Assembly: GCA_003602605.1 (NCBI GenBank) | Contig: QQRW01000048.1 | Span: 15,679-55,336, forward strand | From: Candidatus Poseidoniales archaeon | Lineage (GTDB): Archaea; Thermoplasmatota; Poseidoniia; Poseidoniales; Poseidoniaceae | Direction: 5' to 3' | DNA: 39,658 nucleotides | Part shown: piece by piece, positions 2,057-21,390 of the stretch | Layout of the letters: every line of letters begins with the position of its first letter | How positions within the stretch are numbered: the stretch's first letter is position 1 | Program-made: the position numbers and the translations under genes | The notes under the pieces: generated by a model | The model's input: only the letters and a program-made list of their open reading frames with translations | Told to the model about the DNA's origin: nothing | Database searches by the model: none

Positions 2057-2944
2057 TCAAGCAACATCGCCTGATTTACTTTTTTTCTTTCGAGCTTTAA
2101 GCAACATGTTCAACCAAGTCGGTTTGCGAACATCGCCCTCTTCATTGACAAAGGATCGAACTGCTAACGACAGCAAGTCGATCAGTACAACGACGATAAA
2201 GATAAGAATCAACAATGCGAAGACTTTGTCGTATTGAAGAAACTTCAGATACGTGTTGATGTAGTAACCAATTCCACCCGCACCAACGATTCCTATGACG
2301 GTTCCGTGGCGTACATTGTACTCGAACATGAACATGATTTGACTGAGCAGATGGTTGCTGTTCTCTGGTATGACGATGTTGAATACAATACTTGGGCGGC
2401 TCAAACCCATGGCTCGACCTGCTTCAAGCGGGTCGTTTGCCATACCTTCAAACACTTCATACTGCAATTTGCCAAGATATCCTATCGTGTAGAACGTCAT
2501 GGCGAGTACGCCAGAAAGCGGACCAAATCCAATCACAATTACAAACAGAATAGCCCAAATCAAACTCGGCAGACTGCGGACGGCTGAGAGGAAGATTCGA
2601 ACAGGGAGTGATATGTACAACGGCATCAAGTTTCGTGCAGCTAATGATGAAAGTGAAATTGCTCCTATGAAACCTAAAATCGTTGAAACAAATGCGATTT
2701 TAAGCGTCTCCATCATCCCGAGATATCCAACGGAACAGAAGAATTCGATCTCTTGTTCACACACCGGGTACGAGCGAGCTTCAAGAACACTCCAATTGGG
2801 TGGCCACATACTCTCTTCAAAGAACACTGCGAGGTTGGAAAGGCCACCCTCGAGGCGCCCCCAGTTGCCTTCAACAAGTCCATCGAGCGTCTGCCATGCC
2901 AGGAAGAAAAGGATGAAAATTATACCAAAGAGGCGATACTTCAT
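2057..2944 (-). CDS. phnE: ABC importer permease, PhnE family (candidate iron importer)
   Basis: An inner-membrane permease of 295 aa. It has an N-terminal membrane segment (about 5-22), a short outside loop with Cys residues, then about five membrane helices. The EAA loop that docks the ATPase is at about residue 178 (EAGRAMGLSRPSIVFNIVIP). The order of segments and GIVGAGGIGYY near the end match the PhnE branch of BPD_transp_1 permeases, which take up phosphonate, phosphite or phosphate. It is the last gene of a minus-strand operon and its start overlaps the ATPase gene by 4 bases, so the two are translationally coupled. Because the partner binding protein looks like a transferrin, the cargo may be Fe(III) and not an organophosphorus compound; that is inference. 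The stop abuts the stop of the convergent small gene. Confidence 0.88.
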   Translation of the reverse strand: MKYRLFGIIFILFFLAWQTLDGLVEGNWGRLEGGLSNLAVFFEESMWPPNWSVLEARSYPVCEQEIEFFCSVGYLGMMETLKIAFVSTILGFIGAISLSSLAARNLMPLYISLPVRIFLSAVRSLPSLIWAILFVIVIGFGPLSGVLAMTFYTIGYLGKLQYEVFEGMANDPLEAGRAMGLSRPSIVFNIVIPENSNHLLSQIMFMFEYNVRHGTVIGIVGAGGIGYYINTYLKFLQYDKVFALLILIFIVVVLIDLLSLAVRSFVNEEGDVRKPTWLNMLLKARKKKSKSGDVA

Positions 2945-3627
2945 TCCTCTTCCCCCGTCGCTTCATTAGACGTCCATTGCTCAATCGACATGTCAATGAA
3001 TTGTCCGTCTTTAATCTCCCAGATTCGGGTTGCAAATTCCTTCGCATTGTCTTCATGGTGTTCAACCATTATGACCGCAGTTCCGTTCTCGACCAATTCG
3101 TGAACTGCGCCAAGAACGATGTCGACGTTCGTTTGGTCAAGTTCGCCTAAGAATTCGTCGGCCAACATAAGTTGGGGACGTTGGGCCAGAGTGCGCGCTG
3201 TCGCAACTCTGCGTTGTTGCCCTCCGGATAACCGCCGCACTGGTTCAGAAACCTTTTCTTCTATACCGAGTGTTCGTATGGCTTCTAGCGTCCTCTCTTT
3301 ACGATCCTTGAACATAGTCTTTGACCAACCCACGCTCAAGCGAGCACCAAGCGAAACATTGTGAGCAACGGTAGCATGTCGAACAAGCCCCAACCTTTGA
3401 GGGATGTATCCAAGTCCACCACGTCGCTTGACGCGAAGGTCAAAATCTCCGTCAAGTGGTCGTACGAGCCCTGCAATGGTTCGAATCAGCGTGGTTTTCC
3501 CAATTCCAGAAGGCCCCAGGATAGCGATGATTTCCCCTTCTTGTACATCAAGAGTTATCGGACTCACCAGCGGTTGATCGTATCCGATGACCAAGCCGTT
3601 CAGAGACAGGATAGCATCTTCGCTCAT
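2941..3627 (-). CDS. phnC: ABC importer ATP-binding protein, PhnC family
   Basis: The cytosolic ATPase of the importer, 228 aa. It has Walker A GPSGIGKTT (about residues 38-46), a Q-loop (YIPQRLG), signature LSGGQQRR (about 133-140), Walker B LMLADEFLGELD, and an H-loop His in MVEHHED. The set is complete, so it should hydrolyse ATP. It is shorter than most PhnC proteins and ends in an acidic tail (EATGEEE). The ATG at 3627 is preceded by GAGGGG about 6-8 bases upstream. It also overlaps, by ATGA, the stop of a 32-codon leader ORF, so its translation may depend on that leader. It overlaps the permease gene downstream by 4 bases. The gap to the binding-protein gene is 193 bases and strongly structured. 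Confidence 0.92.
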   Translation of the reverse strand: MSEDAILSLNGLVIGYDQPLVSPITLDVQEGEIIAILGPSGIGKTTLIRTIAGLVRPLDGDFDLRVKRRGGLGYIPQRLGLVRHATVAHNVSLGARLSVGWSKTMFKDRKERTLEAIRTLGIEEKVSEPVRRLSGGQQRRVATARTLAQRPQLMLADEFLGELDQTNVDIVLGAVHELVENGTAVIMVEHHEDNAKEFATRIWEIKDGQFIDMSIEQWTSNEATGEEE

Positions 3628-3820: not shown

Positions 3821-5935
3821 TTACTCTGTAATCTCATACTTTGAATCAAAGTATGTTGAAATGCCTGGAATGGCACTTATGAGACTGCTGTAGCTGCCGA
3901 GATGTTCTTGCGAATTAACCTCGACCAAACCACCTGTGTTCAACACATTCGACAGGATTTGATCGCCACAAGCGGATTGCGGCGAAGTCGTGTCGACTTG
4001 GTGAGTTATCATCGAGTAGCATCCAGTGTAATTCTGTCCCTGCATAGGGTAATCTTCGACGTACATCTCATCGTTCAATGCCAACATTGCGTTGAGTATT
4101 GCAGTTCGAGTCTGCACATCAAGTGTTGCTGGGTTGTACATCACTGGGTGAGATGGTGCAGAACCGTAGGATGGCAGCAAGATGTATTCAGATTCAGGAA
4201 GACACCAGTCAGCATTCTCGCTTGCGTCATCCTTACCACAGTATGAAGCTACAGTGGAATCCTTAGCAAAAGCGACATCGCCGACTCCTTCTGTCAAGCA
4301 CTTCACTGCGCCAGAGTAGGAGTAGTAAGGAGTACCAGATTCTGGAATACTGGCATTTTCGTTGAAGAACGATGTAATGGTGTCACGTAGTGATTCAATA
4401 TCATCCTGTGGGCCAACGACTGGAGCATATCCTTGGGAGATGAGGTGGCCCATAGGTAGAAGCATGCCAGCAGATTTGAGCCAACCGGTGTGACACGAGG
4501 TCTTTCCTGCCATCATGGCAAACGGATCGGTCGAATCATCATTGTCCAAGTAGGCGTTCGCGATGTCTGAACCGTTGAGTACGACTGCATGTGCATCGTA
4601 GTGCGTGCGGCCGTCAGATTTGAGGTCTGCAGCCATAGCAGCAAGGCCGTATTCTTTCCAACCGACCCACGCTGCGCCACCGTCCATGAATGCGATGTCT
4701 GCATTACCAAAGCGAAGAGCTTCAATGATAGCACCTTCAGAAGCGACTGGGTAAAGCGTTACTGTCACGCCAGTTTGTTCGGCGATGAAATCTGCCAGAA
4801 CTTGTGGGTTCTCAGCAGGGTTTTCGTAATCGTCCTTCATCTCAAATGCGATTCGGATGTTGGAAATTGTTGGAGTCACTGAATCATTAATTTCGAACTT
4901 GGTGTCGTAGTATGCCGAAATTCCAGGTACATCTTCAATCAAGTTTCCATAGGATGCAAGGTGTTCTGTAGCAGTTGTTGCAGAAATTGCAGGAGTGTTG
5001 AGAACATCACTTAGAATAGATTGACCTTCAGTTGAATCCTTCATCGCAACGAGTACGTCTTGAACGAGTGTCATTGTATCTGCATCAGTGGTTGTCGGGT
5101 TGTACATTACCGGGTGCGAAGGTGCGTTTCCGTACGAAGGCAAAAGGATGTAATCAGATTCTGGCAAACACCATGCTTCGTTAGCAGTAGCATCATCGTT
5201 ACCACAGTATGAGGCGATGGTCGAATCCTTTGCAAAGGCAACATCACCGGCTCCTTCAGTCAGGCACTTCACTGCGCCGGAATACGAATAGTAAGGAGTC
5301 CCAGAATCAGGAATGCTTGAATCCTCACTGAAAAAGTTGGTAATGGTTGAACGCAAGGATTCAACATCGTTTGCGTCTCCGATGACGTTTGCATATCCAT
5401 TACCGATGAGGAAACCCATTGGTAGGAGCATGCCTGCCGACTTAAGCCATCCAGTGTGGCACGAAGTCTTTCCAGCCATCAACGAGAACGGGTCTGTTGA
5501 TGGGTCATCGTCAAGGTGGGCTGCAGCAATCTCTGAATCCTTGAGTACAACAGCGTGGGCGCTGTAGTATGTACGTCCATCGGATTTTTGATCTGCAGCA
5601 ATAGCTTCGAGACCGTATTGTTGCCAACCGACCCACGCTGCACCGCCGTCCATGAAGGCGATATCGGCGTTACCGAAGCGGAGAGCTTGGAGGGCGGCGC
5701 CTTCAGAATCGATAGGATACAATGAAACATCCATATTGAGTTCTTCACTCATGTAGTCTGCTAGACGTTGAGGGTTTTCGTCGACATTTGTATAGTCGTC
5801 TTTGATGCTGTAAGCAATGACAAATTCTTCTAAGTTGCTTTCTTCTTTCTCGTCATCGCTACCTAAACAGCCTGCTAGTGAAGCTGTGGCAATTAAGAAG
5901 ACAAGTATCGTTGATTTTAGGGTTCGCGTTTTCAT
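3821..5935 (-). CDS. Two-lobed transferrin-like binding lipoprotein (PhnD-like ABC substrate-binding fold)
   Basis: A 704-aa lipoprotein with an N-terminal signal and lipobox LAGC (Cys23). Two homologous type-II binding-protein lobes follow, about 36-350 and 357-704, identical over long runs. Routine annotation would say phosphonate-binding PhnD. Each lobe carries transferrin signatures: a GKTSCHTG block, YSGAVKCL followed by GDVAFAKDST, and APSHPV. The four Fe(III) ligands of human transferrin (Asp63, Tyr95, Tyr188, His249) align with Asp96, Tyr124, Tyr218, His274 in lobe 1 and Asp418, Tyr446, Tyr540, His596 in lobe 2. The carbonate-site Thr (161, 483) and the flanking Cys pair (159/224, 481/546) are kept; the anion-binding Arg is Lys (165, 487). 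Lobe 2 has an extra Cys-containing insert at about 615-650. I chose the ATG at 5935 because it gives a clean signal peptide. Iron binding is inferred from residue conservation. Confidence 0.85.
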   Translation of the reverse strand: MKTRTLKSTILVFLIATASLAGCLGSDDEKEESNLEEFVIAYSIKDDYTNVDENPQRLADYMSEELNMDVSLYPIDSEGAALQALRFGNADIAFMDGGAAWVGWQQYGLEAIAADQKSDGRTYYSAHAVVLKDSEIAAAHLDDDPSTDPFSLMAGKTSCHTGWLKSAGMLLPMGFLIGNGYANVIGDANDVESLRSTITNFFSEDSSIPDSGTPYYSYSGAVKCLTEGAGDVAFAKDSTIASYCGNDDATANEAWCLPESDYILLPSYGNAPSHPVMYNPTTTDADTMTLVQDVLVAMKDSTEGQSILSDVLNTPAISATTATEHLASYGNLIEDVPGISAYYDTKFEINDSVTPTISNIRIAFEMKDDYENPAENPQVLADFIAEQTGVTVTLYPVASEGAIIEALRFGNADIAFMDGGAAWVGWKEYGLAAMAADLKSDGRTHYDAHAVVLNGSDIANAYLDNDDSTDPFAMMAGKTSCHTGWLKSAGMLLPMGHLISQGYAPVVGPQDDIESLRDTITSFFNENASIPESGTPYYSYSGAVKCLTEGVGDVAFAKDSTVASYCGKDDASENADWCLPESEYILLPSYGSAPSHPVMYNPATLDVQTRTAILNAMLALNDEMYVEDYPMQGQNYTGCYSMITHQVDTTSPQSACGDQILSNVLNTGGLVEVNSQEHLGSYSSLISAIPGISTYFDSKYEITE

Positions 5936-5950
5936 GTTAAGACCTACCGG

Positions 5951-5966
5951 TTTAGGCCGCCCTAAA
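5951..5966. promoter_or_regulatory. Operator-like dyad 1 (TTTAGG-N4-CCTAAA)
   Basis: A perfect 6-base inverted repeat with a 4-base spacer, on the start-codon side of the TATA-like box of the transferrin-like gene and 15 bases from its ATG. It would overlap the expected transcription start, a classic repressor position. The half-sites TTAGG and CCTAA match the arms of DtxR/IdeR-family metal-repressor sites. The regulator is not in this window. Confidence 0.65.
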
Positions 5967-5971
5967 AACCG

Positions 5972-5984
5972 GATATACATAAAG
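5972..5984 (-). promoter_or_regulatory. TATA-like box of the importer operon
   Basis: On the minus strand the sequence reads CTTTATGTATATC, an AT-rich archaeal TATA-like element lying between two identical dyads. Counting about 25 bases downstream puts transcription start near 5953, inside dyad 1, giving a leader of roughly 18 bases before the ATG at 5935. This is predicted from position and composition only. Confidence 0.55.
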
Positions 5985-14614: not shown

Positions 14615-17600
14615 TCACTGTTGACTTTGCGCATACTGCATAGCATATTGCTGTGCATATGCTGCTGCAGTTTGGGCATCATATCCCTGCGCAGTAAATT
14701 GCTGGTAATACTGCTCGTAAACTGCTTGATCCATGGCAGGGGCTGCAGCTTGTGTAACAGCTGCCGGTGCAGCTGCAGCGGCTTGAGACGAGTATTGTTG
14801 TGCATAAGCACGTGCAGTTTCCTCTGGATAACCTTGGGCAATCAGTTGCTGGACATATTGTTCAGTTTGATCGACAACGCCACCAAAGCCGCTGTCGGTC
14901 ATTGCGAAGTTCTTGACATCATCTTCTCCGTTTCGGCCGAGGAAGAACATGGTTCCAACAATTACCAGCAACAACAAAGCGCCAATCATAATTGGTAGGC
15001 CAAGGCCATCAAGAGCACTTTCAGACGAATCTTCACCGCTGTTCGTTTGAGGTTCAGACCAGTTACCGTCAACGAATGTCCAGGCACCGGACCATTCACA
15101 CTCACCATCGATGAATACGAATTCGCCACCTGCTGCATCTGCTTCTGCAGGTGCTTCTAGGCCTTGACACGCTGCCAATTGGAATTCCTGCCATTTGACA
15201 ATCACGTGGCGCTCATCTGGAGCTTGTCCTTCATAGATTCGAATAAAGACACGCTGACTTAGAGATTTGTTGGTGTAGAGATCCTCAAGAGAGAGTGTGA
15301 GAGAGAAAGTATCTCCGTCACCCAAACCGGCCTCGGTCTTCGCCCAAGTTTCGTCGTTCTTCATGTTGAACTTCTCAATAGCGCTTGCAGAGAAGCTGTC
15401 TTCCATGAATGCAATCTCGACATAAACATCGTTCTGAGATTCTGCACCTGAAAGAACTGTACCAGAGACGGTAATTGTCGGTGTAGTAACTCGAGAATTG
15501 TTGAGGTCGAAGTTGATGTCAACATCCGGTTCATCATCACCGAAGTCGTTTGGAACAACGACGAAGTACATCCTGTGCTTTTCAGAGAATTTTTCTGCAC
15601 CGTCAAAGACGACAAGTTCAATTCGTATTTCCGTGTTTGATGCACCGGTTGCGTCGGTGGTTAAGTTGCGGAATGTGTAAGCAAATAACCCATCACTGGC
15701 TGCCGTTTGAATAAATTCATGGCCTTCGATATCAAAGTCATCATCGCCATATGGAGCGTCGAACAGAACCTTCCATTCGTAACGTTCAATGCCGTTTCCG
15801 TCGAGCGCATCCTCGTCCGAGGAATTACTCGCATCGAAATACACTGTGACTTCACCGTTGTTCTCGTTCAATCGGATTTGATGTACATCCCATTCTTTGG
15901 ATTGAATTGTGTTGGTTCCCAAGAATTCAATTTGTTCAGCATAATCATCTCGCATGTCGATCTCTGCATCTGCAGTTGGTCGGAACGCATCTGCATAGAC
16001 ATCGTTCGTTTCAACGGTAACACTGATGAAACGCGAATGGCCTTGGGCATCATGAAGAATGAGGGTTATGTCCCATTGTTCGCCTTGTGTGCATCCAGTA
16101 GCAGATGCGAGGTCGGTCTTACAGAACATCATCAATGGGTTGTTGTCAGTGGTGTGCGCAGTTCCGCTTGCCATCGAAGCACCGGTCCATGAGGTTGGGC
16201 CATCAATGATCCAGTCGGTGTTCAACGTTTCAGTCGTATCTGATACGAAGGAGAAGGTCAGTTCTGCATTGCTCTTGATGTAGTAGTCCTTGTATCCGCC
16301 TGTGCTTGGGTCATTATCGGGTGTTACACCGTTAATCTGCAAGTCAAGCCCGTCTCCTAGAACACCAAAGCCTGTTGGATAAGGAGTCACTTGGTAACTG
16401 AGCATGTTACCGAGAAGAGGTAGTGTTGCACTGTCTGCACGCTCGGAGTGAGTAGCAACGTCAATCGTCGAAACAATCAGTCCACCGGCTTGGTAACTGC
16501 AAACACCTAGGATGGTATCCTTTTGTTGTGCTTGGGTACCGTCTTGACGGATAATTCGTTGGAAAGTTCCGTCTCTCTTGGTTTCACTGTATCCGCCACA
16601 ACGTTCTGGAACGTTGTTCGCACTCTGAGAGTTCGTGTCTAGAACCGCCGTTGCGACAGTCGAAGAAGCATCGAATCCTTGGAACGCTGCCAAATCCACA
16701 TTTTCCATAAGTGGATGGTATGGATCTGCGAAGTTTGTTTCAGCATAGGTGATCGGGCTCTCGCCGAGATTCTTGCTCTGGATGTTCAGTCCAAACGGAA
16801 GACGACCGGTCAATCCTTGATCAAGACCGTAGACTTGACTGCCTTGAGGACCCAGGTGGGCCTGAACAGTACCACCGGCATACATGAAGCCTTCAAGGGT
16901 GTTCTTATTGGCTGTTGAACCCAACTTCTGGTAGTATCCTCGGCCGCCGTTTTCGATGTCTTTAGCGGCAATATCGGTTTGCCATGGCAAGACAATCTTA
17001 TCGTAGTGGGTAAACCAACCACTGAGGAAGTAAGTATCCCAATCGTTGATGTCAAATTGTGTATAAGTCATTCCAAGGATGTTCAAGTCTTCCTTGATTG
17101 CTGATGTACGAGGGGAAGTATCCGAAAGAATCGCCACATCTACCGAGTCAGCAAAGGTTGCGTGGAAGTAGCGAACGTTTCCGGATGGATTTCCGTTTGC
17201 GAGTTCCGCATCGAAACTGATGTTGTATTCATGTCCATCTTGCCATCCGTTCCACGGAGTGAAAGACACATCAATCAGCTGGTGCGATTCAAGAGACTGT
17301 GCAGGTCCAGCGGTTGTCGTGTGAGCTTGTGAACCAGCGGTCATATCGAAGATGTTCATGTTGAACACATAGTCTCCGGCCAGAACACCGTTGGTTGCCT
17401 TAACGGTCCAATCGTGAGTAAGTGCGCTGTCGATTGGCATAACACATTCGAGTGTTTGATCGTTTAGACAGTTCAAGGTGTTCGGCTTGCCTAGCGTAAT
17501 ATCCACTGACTCAACGTTGAAAATTACAGTTTCGCGGTTGTTCGAAACTGACAATTCGTTGTTGTTGAACCACGGCTTACCTACCGTTGTGTTGTCGAAA

Positions 17601-20600
17601 ATAGTCTCGACGTCAATTTTGTAAACGCCTGCAAAGAATTCGTGGCTTGCGATGAGATCGGTCGAGATCATGTCAGCGTCAATGTTTGTCTTGGAAATCG
17701 TGTAAGCGTTGTCTTCAACGAAGGTGAACTCTTGGAGAGATATATTGTTGAAAGCAACTCCCTTGAACCCGTCGTTGATTCCGTTTCGGCCGTCATCATC
17801 GGATTGGAATTCAAAGTTGATATCAACAGTAGCACCAGCCAACGACATACATTCAAATTCCCAGTCCACGGTGGATGCGGAAGAGGTATTGAGCGCATAC
17901 AGGTGCGTCAAGTCGATGCTTGTAGTAGCGACAAGGTCGTTTGTGTTGAAGAACACGTTGTAATTCGAACCGGAGCCATCTGTTGTTGCATCGTCACCGA
18001 TGTATGAAATCTCGGCGAAATCAATTGGTTCAGATTCGTTCACGATGTTATCGCCGTTTTCATCGACTTGACATGTCCCATCTTCGTTGTAATCGTTCCA
18101 TTGTCCCATGACGACACTGCTGTATGTCGCACCGTCGCGAAGGATGTCGAGAGTCATTGCGGCATAGTCATTGACATCAACGATGCTGGTTCCATCGGAA
18201 TCAATGCCGTAAAATGTATCTGCATAATACTCAAAGTTGAGAGAGACGAAGTCGCCGCTCATTGAAGTCAAATCAACACCAGGGATGGTTAGTGTTTCGT
18301 TTGCCCATGCGTCACCGTAGCCGTTCGACCCAGTATCACACGGATGACCAAACCAGTAACCGTGGTTGTTGAATATCTTCTCTTGACAATTGATTTCGTT
18401 GTAGACTGCACCTTGTGGGTTTTGACTCTCTTCGTATCGGTATCCGTCAGCGCCACCTTCGAAAGTCTCTTCACAGAGAGCGCTCGGTGTGCCACAGTAG
18501 ATGTCTGAAGGGGTTGCTGAGTAAACAGTGGCCTTAACATCATAGTCAACAGCGGTATTACCGTAGTTATTGGTTGCAACTTCAATGTCGAAAATTCCTT
18601 CAGCATACAATCCTCCAGGTTTGAAGTACTCAAGGCTATCGACCATAGGGTCGTAGAGGTTGAATGGAGTAATGTACCCGACAATTTCATCGTTCTGACT
18701 CTGCTCATCCCATGAATTTCCGGTCAACACTGCTGAGATACGATAGGTCGTATCGTTGAGGAGATCCGCTGAAATCGAGGTGGTGAAATCTTGGCCTGGT
18801 CCGAGGTTGTTCAGAGGGACATTGGCTTGTTGGACTTGTGGATTTGGTAGGAATGCTGTTGTTTGCTTCCAAATCGTGAGGTTGTCGACTGCATATCCAT
18901 CGCGTCCTGACCACTCAGAATCGTTGTCGCTGGAAATTGAGCCTTCAAATCCAGTTCGCAATCGGAACCGGATATCTACAGTCTCACCAGCCCAGGGGCT
19001 GAGATCGAATGCTCCAACGCCTTCTTCAGTGAAATTATTCCAACCGTAGTATGTTCCAAAAGAGTATACACCATAGTAGTAGATACCTTCGGGTGCACCA
19101 CCGATTGCTTGCTTGTACATGCGGTCCATATCGAATCCGCCCCACATAGATTCGCCAGATGCACATGCTCCGGCAAGTTGTGCGCTTTGTGGGCAGGAGA
19201 TTGTTGACCAACCAGTTTCAACGCTGCCGACTTCAATCATGGCAATGTCATCCCAAACATCACCAGCAAGGTAATTTCCGGATTGGTCTAGACTTCCAAG
19301 GACTCCGTGGCCCAAGTGTCGGAACAGTTCAAGACTCATGAAAGCACGGTCAGAGCCTGTCAAGTCGACATCCTCCAAGACCATTGCATCGTCCCAATTA
19401 CGGCCATATCCGGACCATGTATCTCCACTGGAATTGGTCTCATAGTATCCAGCCCACATGAAGTCGGTTGGATTGTTGTAGTTTGCCGAAACGTTTGGAT
19501 CATTGTTACCCGATGTGCCACCAACTGAATTGTTGGTTTCTTCGTGCCACATTGTAGCTTGATCGACGTATTCTTCGTAAGACCAAGTACATCCGCTGCA
19601 CGAAGCTTTGTTTTCCGGTGCATCCCAGTCCATCTCATAGACCGTCGTATTGGACGAATTAGCAGCGTCGACAATTTTGAGTTCGACATCAAGAGTGGCT
19701 TGCTGTCCATTTAGAACATCCATACCAGTGTTGGTTACTGTGACATTGATGTCGCGTGTTCCTTCGCCAACAATACCATAGAATTTGTCAACAGGTGAGA
19801 TCTCAATGGATGAAACGGACAAATCCTTGCTGTCCATTTCAATCACTGAAACGGTATCGTACTGACCTTCCCATCCGAAATTGTCTCTCCAGCCACCAAA
19901 ACGCCAGTTAGCGTGACCGATAACCAAGTCATCGGAAGAGCCACTGGAACCTGCAAGTTGGCCGACGTCAACAACGTTTGGTCTGCGACCTGCAGCGTAC
20001 GAAAGCGGGCTAAGATGGCCGCCGTTACCGTTTGAAAGGGTCACCTGAACAGTAGTTGGGAAGTTAAGGTAAAACGAGGAGGTTGAACCGCCTGCAGAAT
20101 CCGATGTGTTTTGTTGATAAGCGATTGTAGGATTGATGAAATCGGGCTCTTGGTCGCCGTTAAGGTCAGCGATTGCGACCGACCACGAGATGTAAGGGCC
20201 AAAGTAGGCTAGCGAAGGTGAAGACCAAGTTCCAACAGCAGAGGAGGTAGCATAGGTTACATTCTCGAGATTGCTGTCCATCATCACAATGGAATCAATA
20301 ACATTGTCGCCGTCCATATCTCCAATATCAAATTCTTGGGAAGTGACGGTGTTCATGTTAATGACGTGAGTGTTTGGTGGAGGGCTTGTCGCGCTGAATG
20401 TGTAGGTAGCAGGATAAGTGTTGGTTAGACAACTGAATTCAATGATGGTCATGTTATCGTCGTTTCCGGGGTTTGTGACCTGGCCAGTTCTGTAATCAAC
20501 ACCTTCTGCGCGCTGTAGCCACAAGTCGTCATCCGTACACGTACCTGTAAGGCCACCTGTTTCGGTTTCTCCCCAGTCGCCGACTTCCAAATTCTGGTAT

Positions 20601-21286
20601 CGGTCTGATGTTGAGGAACCAAGAGAAGTGATTGTGCCTTGTGTGTTGCTCGTGATTGGACCACGGTATGTGACTACACGTTGTGTGGCCAAGTCACCGA
20701 GCAGATCAAGGACAAAAATATCATCATTGCCGTCTTGGTCTGCGTCACCCACTGTCAAATCCCAAGCGTAGAAGTGAGTGAAGCGAGCGCCAATGCTCCA
20801 TGATTTTTCGTTGCAGCCACCGTTTTCAATGACGGTAACGTTACCGGGTTCACCTGCTGGTGCTCCATTGTCATCGGTCTTGAACGGATTGTTGCGCTGA
20901 TAGATGACAATGTCTGTTGCAGTGTCGCCGGTAAACTCACCAACTTCAATAAATTGAACGTTGGAAAATTCGTCCCATTCGGCGTTACGGCTGGTGTTCT
21001 TAGAGACCCAAACGTCTTGGCGCTCGCTAAAATCACCGTTTCCATCGTTCCATAGGATACTGATGGTGTGAGTCCCGTCGGTCGCCATTGCCAAATCATT
21101 GTGTCCATCGCAGTTGAAGTCGCCAATAGCAACATCTTGCGGGTCACGGTTTGTCGTGTATGAACGAGCCATGGACGCACTCGCTGTTGAAGCGATGGCA
21201 GCGGTGGTCGAAAGTAACATCAGCATGACAAGGAACATGCTTAGGGCGCGGCTCTTGAGGTGGTGGTTCTTGGGAATCATCAACAT
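14615..21286 (-). CDS. Giant surface protein: FG-GAP propeller, CARDB/PKD-like regions, membrane anchor, Gln/Tyr-rich tail
   Basis: About 2223 aa. A signal segment (about 13-38) leads into seven FG-GAP/VCBS-like units at about 50, 112, 176, 232, 318, 368 and 452, several with Asp-x-Asp/Asn-x-Asp calcium loops (GDFNCDGHND, GDADQDGNDD, GDMDGDNVID, ADLNGDQEPD). Seven fits a closed beta-propeller. Next come a CARDB-like segment, Cys-bearing jelly-roll-like regions (CSGCTW, YAVDNLTIW), a PKD-like region and further Ig-like segments. Near the C-terminus, after an acidic Ser-rich stretch, a membrane helix (LGLPIMIGALLLLVIVGTMF) precedes a cytosolic tail. The tail has two copies of a helical unit, one QQLIAQGYPEETARAYAQQY and one QQFTAQGYDAQTAAAYAQQY. 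I chose the ATG at 21286 because GGAGAAGG lies 6 bases upstream; a frame extension reaches 21355. It may mediate adhesion or glycan binding. Confidence 0.8.
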   Translation of the reverse strand: MLMIPKNHHLKSRALSMFLVMLMLLSTTAAIASTASASMARSYTTNRDPQDVAIGDFNCDGHNDLAMATDGTHTISILWNDGNGDFSERQDVWVSKNTSRNAEWDEFSNVQFIEVGEFTGDTATDIVIYQRNNPFKTDDNGAPAGEPGNVTVIENGGCNEKSWSIGARFTHFYAWDLTVGDADQDGNDDIFVLDLLGDLATQRVVTYRGPITSNTQGTITSLGSSTSDRYQNLEVGDWGETETGGLTGTCTDDDLWLQRAEGVDYRTGQVTNPGNDDNMTIIEFSCLTNTYPATYTFSATSPPPNTHVINMNTVTSQEFDIGDMDGDNVIDSIVMMDSNLENVTYATSSAVGTWSSPSLAYFGPYISWSVAIADLNGDQEPDFINPTIAYQQNTSDSAGGSTSSFYLNFPTTVQVTLSNGNGGHLSPLSYAAGRRPNVVDVGQLAGSSGSSDDLVIGHANWRFGGWRDNFGWEGQYDTVSVIEMDSKDLSVSSIEISPVDKFYGIVGEGTRDINVTVTNTGMDVLNGQQATLDVELKIVDAANSSNTTVYEMDWDAPENKASCSGCTWSYEEYVDQATMWHEETNNSVGGTSGNNDPNVSANYNNPTDFMWAGYYETNSSGDTWSGYGRNWDDAMVLEDVDLTGSDRAFMSLELFRHLGHGVLGSLDQSGNYLAGDVWDDIAMIEVGSVETGWSTISCPQSAQLAGACASGESMWGGFDMDRMYKQAIGGAPEGIYYYGVYSFGTYYGWNNFTEEGVGAFDLSPWAGETVDIRFRLRTGFEGSISSDNDSEWSGRDGYAVDNLTIWKQTTAFLPNPQVQQANVPLNNLGPGQDFTTSISADLLNDTTYRISAVLTGNSWDEQSQNDEIVGYITPFNLYDPMVDSLEYFKPGGLYAEGIFDIEVATNNYGNTAVDYDVKATVYSATPSDIYCGTPSALCEETFEGGADGYRYEESQNPQGAVYNEINCQEKIFNNHGYWFGHPCDTGSNGYGDAWANETLTIPGVDLTSMSGDFVSLNFEYYADTFYGIDSDGTSIVDVNDYAAMTLDILRDGATYSSVVMGQWNDYNEDGTCQVDENGDNIVNESEPIDFAEISYIGDDATTDGSGSNYNVFFNTNDLVATTSIDLTHLYALNTSSASTVDWEFECMSLAGATVDINFEFQSDDDGRNGINDGFKGVAFNNISLQEFTFVEDNAYTISKTNIDADMISTDLIASHEFFAGVYKIDVETIFDNTTVGKPWFNNNELSVSNNRETVIFNVESVDITLGKPNTLNCLNDQTLECVMPIDSALTHDWTVKATNGVLAGDYVFNMNIFDMTAGSQAHTTTAGPAQSLESHQLIDVSFTPWNGWQDGHEYNISFDAELANGNPSGNVRYFHATFADSVDVAILSDTSPRTSAIKEDLNILGMTYTQFDINDWDTYFLSGWFTHYDKIVLPWQTDIAAKDIENGGRGYYQKLGSTANKNTLEGFMYAGGTVQAHLGPQGSQVYGLDQGLTGRLPFGLNIQSKNLGESPITYAETNFADPYHPLMENVDLAAFQGFDASSTVATAVLDTNSQSANNVPERCGGYSETKRDGTFQRIIRQDGTQAQQKDTILGVCSYQAGGLIVSTIDVATHSERADSATLPLLGNMLSYQVTPYPTGFGVLGDGLDLQINGVTPDNDPSTGGYKDYYIKSNAELTFSFVSDTTETLNTDWIIDGPTSWTGASMASGTAHTTDNNPLMMFCKTDLASATGCTQGEQWDITLILHDAQGHSRFISVTVETNDVYADAFRPTADAEIDMRDDYAEQIEFLGTNTIQSKEWDVHQIRLNENNGEVTVYFDASNSSDEDALDGNGIERYEWKVLFDAPYGDDDFDIEGHEFIQTAASDGLFAYTFRNLTTDATGASNTEIRIELVVFDGAEKFSEKHRMYFVVVPNDFGDDEPDVDINFDLNNSRVTTPTITVSGTVLSGAESQNDVYVEIAFMEDSFSASAIEKFNMKNDETWAKTEAGLGDGDTFSLTLSLEDLYTNKSLSQRVFIRIYEGQAPDERHVIVKWQEFQLAACQGLEAPAEADAAGGEFVFIDGECEWSGAWTFVDGNWSEPQTNSGEDSSESALDGLGLPIMIGALLLLVIVGTMFFLGRNGEDDVKNFAMTDSGFGGVVDQTEQYVQQLIAQGYPEETARAYAQQYSSQAAAAAPAAVTQAAAPAMDQAVYEQYYQQFTAQGYDAQTAAAYAQQYAMQYAQSQQ

Positions 21287-21390
21287 CACTAACCTTCTCC
21301 AACCCCTGTTGCACTTTAATTCCTTTGCTTTCAAGTTCTCAAATGAAAACATCAAAAAGACTCGCAGTAGCCCGAATAGTGGATTGGAAA

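Follow-up and report, generated by a model that had tools for sequence, protein, structure and literature searches.

Does the gene at positions 3821 to 5935 of a stretch of 39,658 nucleotides from a Candidatus Poseidoniales archaeon (contig QQRW01000048.1, positions 15,679 to 55,336), which is termed the window in the following, encode the phosphonate-binding component of an ATP-binding cassette (ABC) importer, or does it encode a transferrin? Textbooks present transferrin as a protein of animals. A sequence-only reading of the window had proposed that the gene product, a putative lipoprotein of 704 amino acids, is a two-lobed archaeal transferrin hidden under a PhnD-type annotation. The analysis presented here points to the same answer: the protein is very probably a prokaryotic transferrin-type Fe(III) receptor, which would feed the adjoining PhnC/PhnE-type ABC importer and be subject to DtxR/IdeR-type repression.

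Membership of the transferrin family is evident from sequence comparison. Scoring the protein against the Pfam families PF00405 (Transferrin) and PF12974 (Phosphonate-bd), a comparison suggested by the sequence-only reading, gave nearly equal values, namely 153 bits (cut-off 20.3, E=1.5e-44) and 145.8 bits (cut-off 27), respectively, and its two lobes exceed the PF00405 cut-off even if scanned singly (82.8 bits for lobe 1 and 77.1 bits for lobe 2). The more specific PhnD models of NCBIfam are missed by the full-length protein, which reaches 70.4 bits against a cut-off of 261.1 for the equivalog TIGR03431 and 100.7 bits against 112.05 for the subfamily TIGR01098. In a search of PDB sequences with the 704-residue protein, 102 sequences were retrieved at E<=10, and the best 60 listed all belong to the animal transferrin family. 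The same holds for the best 60 listed of the 98 sequences retrieved at E<=0.001 with a profile of 28 archaeal lobes, whose best match is bovine lactoferrin (E 3.1e-48) and whose matches also comprise saxiphilin and an inhibitor of carbonic anhydrase. Escherichia coli PhnD as a query yielded 17 PDB sequences at E<=0.001, which are of the phosphonate-, phosphite- or ArrX/Aio-type and include no transferrins. Chance resemblance to transferrin was rejected on the basis of the E values obtained with PF00405 and with bovine lactoferrin.

Moreover, the residues corresponding to the transferrin ligands are conserved. Counted over 119 lobes from 81 related loci (L034-L114) and the window, and numbered as in lobe 1, the Fe(III)-ligand positions are occupied by Asp at Asp96 in 117 lobes, by Tyr at Tyr124 in 118 and at Tyr218 in 117, and by His at His274 in 116. 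At the anion site, Thr161 is Thr in 119/119 lobes and Lys165 is Lys in 116/119, while Cys159 and Cys224 are kept in 118/119 lobes and Cys244 and Cys256 in 119/119. In the HMMER alignments, archaeal residues stand opposite the LDGG, YYAVAVV, SCHTG, GYSGAFKC and VPSH stretches of the animal proteins. The carbonate-site Arg of vertebrates is replaced by Lys165 and Lys487 in the window lobes, a point that the sequence-only reading had missed; the position of Lys165 is that of Arg124 in human transferrin. Since the C-lobe of melanotransferrin features Ser at this position, together with Ala in place of Thr, the Arg was not treated as a defining trait of PF00405.

Departures from the ligand set are few and, among the 119 lobes, confined to four, two of which belong to L071 (see below). 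Lobe 2 of L107 departs by one unread residue, and the haloarchaeal piece L034 has other residues in place of the Lys and of either member of the first Cys pair, with the Asp lying outside the covered stretch. Among the 28 lobes of the profile, Glu takes the place of Asp in two C-lobes (L010 and L022), and the outlying L020 is devoid of Tyr218 and of the anion-site Lys. The second of the tandem genes in L071 has lost the ligands in both lobes. This two-lobed relative (L071 6355-8472), which adjoins an intact copy, and another one that has likewise lost some or all of the Fe ligands (L155 3-2075) perhaps serve a new substrate or partner role.

The open frame also contains an upstream ATG at 5980. 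Since this codon falls within the TATA-like element between two operator-like palindromes, the start at 5935 assumed by the sequence-only reading is preferred, from which the frame extends on the minus strand to the stop at 3821. The resulting N-terminus reads MKTRTLKSTIL...SLAGC, and a charged linker separates its lipobox-like end from the lobes, which comprise 322 and 349 amino acids (Table 1). The similarity between both lobes is high, no gap interrupts their alignment from the start to past His274/His596, and the lobe-to-lobe period of 322 claimed previously is thus exact; a 31-residue insert in lobe 2 lies beyond the region of the His ligand. The claimed landmarks SCHTG, YSGAVKCL...GDVAFAKDST and PSHPV are present in both lobes, and the positions assigned to Asp, both Tyr, Thr, His and the first Cys pair of either lobe were all correct.

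For lobe 1, AlphaFold2 predicted a fold with a predicted local distance difference test score (pLDDT) of 92.5 and a predicted template modelling score (pTM) of 0.87. In the structure comparison PtxB and ovotransferrin tied in Z score, so that the fold alone cannot decide the family, and an assignment on this basis was rejected. FbpA-type chains are absent among the best 50 structure matches listed, which excludes nothing.

PhnC/PhnE-type genes follow the transferrin-like gene. The best NCBIfam match of the adjoining ATPase is TIGR02315 (PhnC), yet it stays below the cut-off (129.2 versus 266.1), while the permease gene (2944-2057) reaches 223.3 bits with TIGR01097 (PhnE) and thereby exceeds the cut-off of 216.7. 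The order of transferrin-like gene, PhnC-like ATPase and PhnE-type permease recurs in 74/81 loci; six of the other seven end at a DNA boundary before the operon completes, and L056 constitutes the true exception. The operon order also applies to L016 and L027, and L020 has PhnC- and PhnE-like frames upstream of the gene. Within the archaeon's own assembly, the completeness of which is 86%, no gene other than the transferrin-like one matches PF12974. A by-eye comparison within the families f1-f3 showed that the PF12974 matches above cut-off are the same frames as the PF00405 matches listed, with two exceptions. One of them, G039:C18 (L155), is a degenerate relative, the full-length scan of which exceeds the cut-offs of both models; the other, G130:C36 (L159), is a relative that adjoins a box and is truncated where its contig ends. 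PhnJ of the C-P lyase, the one phosphonate enzyme searched for, was found in 0/98 genomes of the class, the control being positive in E. coli (1/14 control genomes). The core genome of Marine Group II is described as including phosphonate transport (PMC6336850), which fits the claim of a transferrin hidden under a PhnD-type annotation. This core trait probably rests on the transferrin-like operon, and the annotation of Marine Group II with phosphonate transport may be wrong.

Evidence pointing to iron is provided by the DNA preceding the gene, where two boxes flank the TATA-like element (Table 1). Both are perfect palindromes of the pattern TTTAGGN4CCTAAA and match TTAGGNNNNCCTAA, the consensus sequence (14 base pairs, bp) proposed for IdeR/DtxR regulators that depend on iron (PMC8464063). 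No box match occurred in 100 shuffles of the window. Throughout the 81 loci (794 kilobases, kb), 127 sites of the 14-bp form were found, 123 of them within -200 to +150 of the start of a transferrin-like frame and the remaining four 2.2-4.6 kb further on, where PhnC frames start. At least one such box lies beside the gene in 71/81 loci, and where two are present, spacings of 33-35 or 43-44 bp prevail. In the spacer of these two-box loci, ATA, ATG or TTAA occurs among the first 10 bases in 43/44 cases and among the last 10 in 5/44; a stricter TATA pattern fits only 12/44. The 16-bp form of the box accounts for 193 sites in 79/98 genomes of the class, compared to 23 sites in 20 genomes for the reversed pattern. 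Four 16-bp boxes are present in the archaeon's own genome, two of them at the transferrin-like gene. The third (G000:C33:144186-144201; L121 4987-5002) overlaps the start of a glutamyl-tRNA reductase (hemA-like) frame, which is followed by porphobilinogen deaminase/HemD, and haem synthesis may hence belong to the same iron regulon. The fourth (G000:C21:53314-53329; L120 5015-5030) is located 12 bp before a Cys-rich frame of 101 amino acids (4697-5002, minus strand) without a Pfam match, possibly a new iron-responsive protein.

In addition, DtxR-like genes adjoin the transferrin-like gene in at least 6/81 loci (L034, L061, L065, L067, L089 and L094) as well as in L027; the count is a lower bound because a single haloarchaeal query was used. 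All five adjoining DtxR-like genes that were scanned contain Fe_dep_repress, Fe_dep_repr_C and FeoA above cut-off. Fe_dep_repr_C occurs in 94/98 genomes of the class, with one match in the archaeon's own genome (G000:C40), away from the transferrin-like gene. A different iron context surrounds the copy of the UBP7 bacterium (L056, 254-4965), where genes for FecCD, an ABC ATPase, Peripla_BP_2, PNPOx and haem oxygenase precede the transferrin-like gene and no PhnC/PhnE genes follow it. FeoB_C, the one domain searched for among iron importers, is missing from all 98 genomes of the class (0/98) and was detected in 7/14 control genomes; this widespread importer of ferrous iron is apparently missing from the class.

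Table 1. Coordinates of the transferrin-like gene, its adjoining importer genes and its upstream elements in the window
Feature	Position	Strand	Basis
PhnE-type ABC permease	2057..2944	-	PF00528 60.8 bits; TIGR01097 PhnE; synteny
PhnC-like ABC ATPase	2941..3627	-	PF00005 95.9 bits; synteny
Transferrin-like two-lobed putative lipoprotein, substrate-binding component, 704 amino acids	3821..5935	-	PF00405 and PF12974 matches; PDB sequence matches
Lobe 2, residues 356-704: Asp418, Tyr446, Thr483, Lys487, Tyr540, His596, Cys481, Cys546	3824..4870	-	pairing with lobe 1
Lobe 1, residues 34-355: Asp96, Tyr124, Thr161, Lys165, Tyr218, His274; Cys159, Cys224, Cys244, Cys256	4871..5836	-	alignments; AlphaFold2
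Lipobox-like LAGC, Cys23 as putative lipid anchor	5867..5878	-	translation read directly; inferred
Downstream DtxR/IdeR-type box TTTAGGGCGGCCTAAA, 15 bp before ATG	5951..5966	.	exact match
TATA-like element TTTATGTATAT between the boxes	5973..5983	-	sequence
Upstream DtxR/IdeR-type box TTTAGGGCGGCCTAAA	5986..6001	.	exact match

The window also holds an open frame of 2246 amino acids (14615-21355, minus strand).

PF00405 matches above cut-off are present in 73/292 genomes of the phylum, that is, counted by rows, in 38/42 of family f1, 29/39 of f2, 3/6 of f3 and three elsewhere, and none was obtained in 14 control genomes. Since the named records of relatives mostly derive from Marine Group II/III archaea, f1-f3 are taken to be families of the Poseidoniia. 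Of the 224 relatives in genome contigs, the best 80 were considered. Copies outside Marine Group II/III occur in the UBP7 bacterium (L056), in a record bearing the title Woesearchaeota (L076) and, among the haloarchaea, in Natronococcus occultus. The copy of the latter is missing from the gene table of its record and looks interrupted; it is flanked by a 'metal-dependent transcriptional regulator' gene and by ABC ATPase/phnE genes. Two further records, L081 ('Deltaproteobacteria') and L104 ('Flavobacteriaceae'), carry marine-archaeal-like operons with boxes, and L081 contains a frame that was read by eye as glycerol-3-phosphate dehydrogenase, as found near the operon of the window. For these reasons their labels are possibly wrong, and both look like mislabelled marine archaeal contigs; they were not used as bacterial examples, while being included in the counts of the 81 loci. 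Carriage of the gene by viruses was rejected: seven pattern-matched stretches in viral contigs were compared by tblastn, and none encodes a relative.

Judged by sequence scores, the archaeal lobes join the PhnD-type and transferrin families in a graded series. The Phosphonate-bd and Transferrin scores in bits are 267.7 and none for E. coli PhnD, 156.8 and 16.6 for L157, 121.4 and 68.8 for L020, 113.6 and 70.2 for L027, 103.2 and 73.5 for L016, 83.3 and 82.8 for window lobe 1, 68.0 and 77.1 for window lobe 2, and 21.1 and 415.6 for a stretch of bovine lactoferrin. The sequence-only reading had envisaged either a prokaryotic counterpart of transferrin or a bridge between the two families. At the level of sequence both suggestions are borne out.

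Trees were calculated with IQ-TREE (27 sequences) and, for a larger set of 131 sequences, with FastTree, the animals being represented by five lobes from three vertebrate proteins and by no algal or invertebrate sequences. In both trees the archaeal lobes group with the animal transferrins and apart from PhnD/PtxB; the branch separating the PhnD-type sequences (PhnD/PtxB with L124/L125) from the rest received 99.7/100 in IQ-TREE. All lobes of animals fall into a single clade (100/100 in IQ-TREE, 0.994 in FastTree), which joins the archaeal series beside L020/L076 with weak support in IQ-TREE (68/34). In FastTree, the grouping of archaeal with animal lobes is supported at 0.745, that of the archaeal set alone only at 0.203. 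Furthermore, single-lobed archaeal members branch deeper than two-lobed ones in the FastTree phylogeny, where the N- and C-lobes of the two-lobed archaeal proteins are placed deep within a largely single-lobed archaeal series. Since they join there and away from the animal lobes, the doubling does not look like shared ancestry with the two-lobed animal transferrins and would have arisen independently within the archaea.

L124 and L125, which are PhnD-like and stem from two other families of the phylum, possess both Tyr and the His and miss the Asp, the Thr and the Cys pair; they possibly represent an intermediate metal-binding family. Their genes (L157 3136-4560 and L158 3629-5638) encode no SCHTG and adjoin PhnC/PhnE-like frames, and in L157 a divergent DtxR-type gene is situated beside the PhnD-like one.

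How would such a receptor operate? In animal transferrin, carbonate is located at the start of the helix following SCHTG, and the corresponding stretch of PhnD-type proteins binds the oxyanion; in the tree alignment both stretches align with each other. On the simplest reading, an oxyanion site would have been turned into a synergistic-anion site, with side chains added for the ferric ion. Anchored to the membrane as a putative lipoprotein, the archaeal protein would bind ferric ions extracellularly, one in each lobe, via Asp, two Tyr and one His, together with a synergistic anion, probably carbonate, held by Thr and Lys at the SCHTG helix. Having captured Fe(III)-carbonate at the cell surface, either lobe would close, and open again upon docking to the PhnE-type permease; iron would pass from the lipoprotein to the neighbouring PhnC/PhnE-type importer. 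With two lobes per anchor, capacity or avidity would be doubled. During iron sufficiency, a DtxR/IdeR-type repressor of this species would occupy both boxes, obstruct the TATA-like element and switch off the operon.

These proposals have to be weighed against other explanations. An ordinary importer of phosphonate, phosphite or phosphate of the PhnCDE/PtxABC type, whose transferrin likeness would merely reflect a common ancestor, is highly improbable. At the position equivalent to Tyr124, E. coli PhnD and PtxB have Tyr as well, and this residue hence does not distinguish the families; the telling residues are Asp, Tyr218, His, Thr and the Cys pair. Against such an importer stand the near-invariance of the transferrin ligands, the missed PhnD cut-offs, the replacement of the STSG-type stretch of PhnD by SCHTGWLKSAG, the iron-type boxes and DtxR neighbours, the absence of PhnJ from the 98 genomes of the class and the haem/iron gene context of L056. 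It is unlikely, too, that a metal is bound in an un-transferrin-like manner, be it Mn, Fe(III) accompanied by phosphate or some organic anion, or, for instance, an iron chelate that would be the true substrate. The exchange of the anion-site Arg for Lys, the coincidence of this site with the PhnD stretch in the alignment, the PtxB-like fold and the existence of Mn regulators among the relatives of DtxR would suit this explanation, but Asp-Tyr-Tyr-His is the Fe(III) set of transferrin and is kept in 116-118/119 lobes, and one of the four boxes of the archaeon's own genome belongs to a pair of haem-synthesis genes. Moreover, the box matches the published iron-dependent IdeR consensus (PMC8464063).

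Acquisition of the gene from a eukaryote, be it an animal or an alga, with later placement before PhnC/PhnE, is very unlikely. It is suggested by the fact that transferrins are best known from animals, by the marine habitat shared with phytotransferrin-bearing algae, and by the weakly supported position of the animal lobes inside the archaeal series of the IQ-TREE phylogeny. In neither tree, however, are archaeal lobes placed inside the animal clade, as represented by three vertebrate proteins, and the five archaeal lobes scanned still reach 68-121 bits with the PhnD-type family, as opposed to 21 for the lactoferrin stretch. The deeper branching of single-lobed members argues against acquisition as well, as do the outliers L016, L020 and L027 from three other families of the phylum, which retain PhnC-/PhnE-like neighbours and, in L027, a DtxR-like one. 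A prokaryotic transferrin-type receptor is the preferred explanation. Whether it also reveals the origin of the family is considerably less certain: tentatively, and with more doubt than confidence, transferrin might be a prokaryotic invention, in which the oxyanion site of an archaeal PhnD-type protein became a synergistic-anion site with ferric ligands under DtxR control. The archaeal family would then be the surviving stem, from which, or from a relative of which, eukaryotes acquired the protein, and L124/L125 would be relics of the intermediate step.

Compared to the PF00405 transferrins (lactoferrin, ovotransferrin, serotransferrin and melanotransferrin), the archaeal protein has in common the Asp/Tyr/Tyr/His set, SCHTG, the Cys pair of the Cys118-Cys194 type, YSGA..C...GDVAF.K and VPSH, and in structure alignment over most of the lobe 24-29% of the residues are identical to those of vertebrate lobes and 18% to those of an insect lobe. 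The putative lipid anchor, the adjoining ABC importer, the operator boxes, the Lys in place of Arg and the separate doubling are confined to the archaeal side, and conserved Cys are fewer in archaeal than in vertebrate lobes. Identity with PhnD/PtxB/HtxB (PF12974) amounts to 13-17% in the structure alignment; PhnD/PtxB-type proteins lack SCHTG, the paired Cys and the Asp, Tyr218 and His of the archaeal protein, for which boxes and context suggest iron. Like FbpA-type ferric binding proteins, it would hand Fe(III) to an ABC importer, but none of its five Pfam matches (E<=1) is of the FbpA type and its permease is PhnE-type. The diatom phytotransferrin ISIP2a, likened here by description, likewise serves carbonate-dependent Fe(III) uptake in the sea, though it is eukaryotic and internalised by endocytosis (PMC7676907). 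According to the same review, referring to McQuaid 2018, ISIP2a and transferrin share an origin among phosphonate-binding periplasmic proteins (PMC7676907), and PF00405 is included in a published list of Pfam signatures of solute-binding proteins (PMC9602780).

No archaeal transferrin is named in the titles and abstracts found by literature search, while the McQuaid 2018 tree may include such sequences. As far as this search goes, the archaeal ligand-bearing clade, its ABC operon, iron-type boxes and DtxR neighbours are new, and so are the bacterial copy at a haem locus, the independent doubling of the lobes and the probable need to correct the annotation as phosphonate transport. Growth in the surface ocean is iron-limited over large areas. 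If the proposed function is true, what passes for phosphonate uptake in the core genome of Marine Group II would serve the import of ferric iron, in genomes that yielded no FeoB_C match (0/98), and the view of the lifestyle of a major group of ocean archaea would change. An archaeal version with the ligand set would provide transferrin evolution with a prokaryotic branch that can be assayed lobe by lobe. Taken together, the finding suggests that marine archaea import iron in the style of transferrin, and that transferrin itself may have prokaryotic roots.

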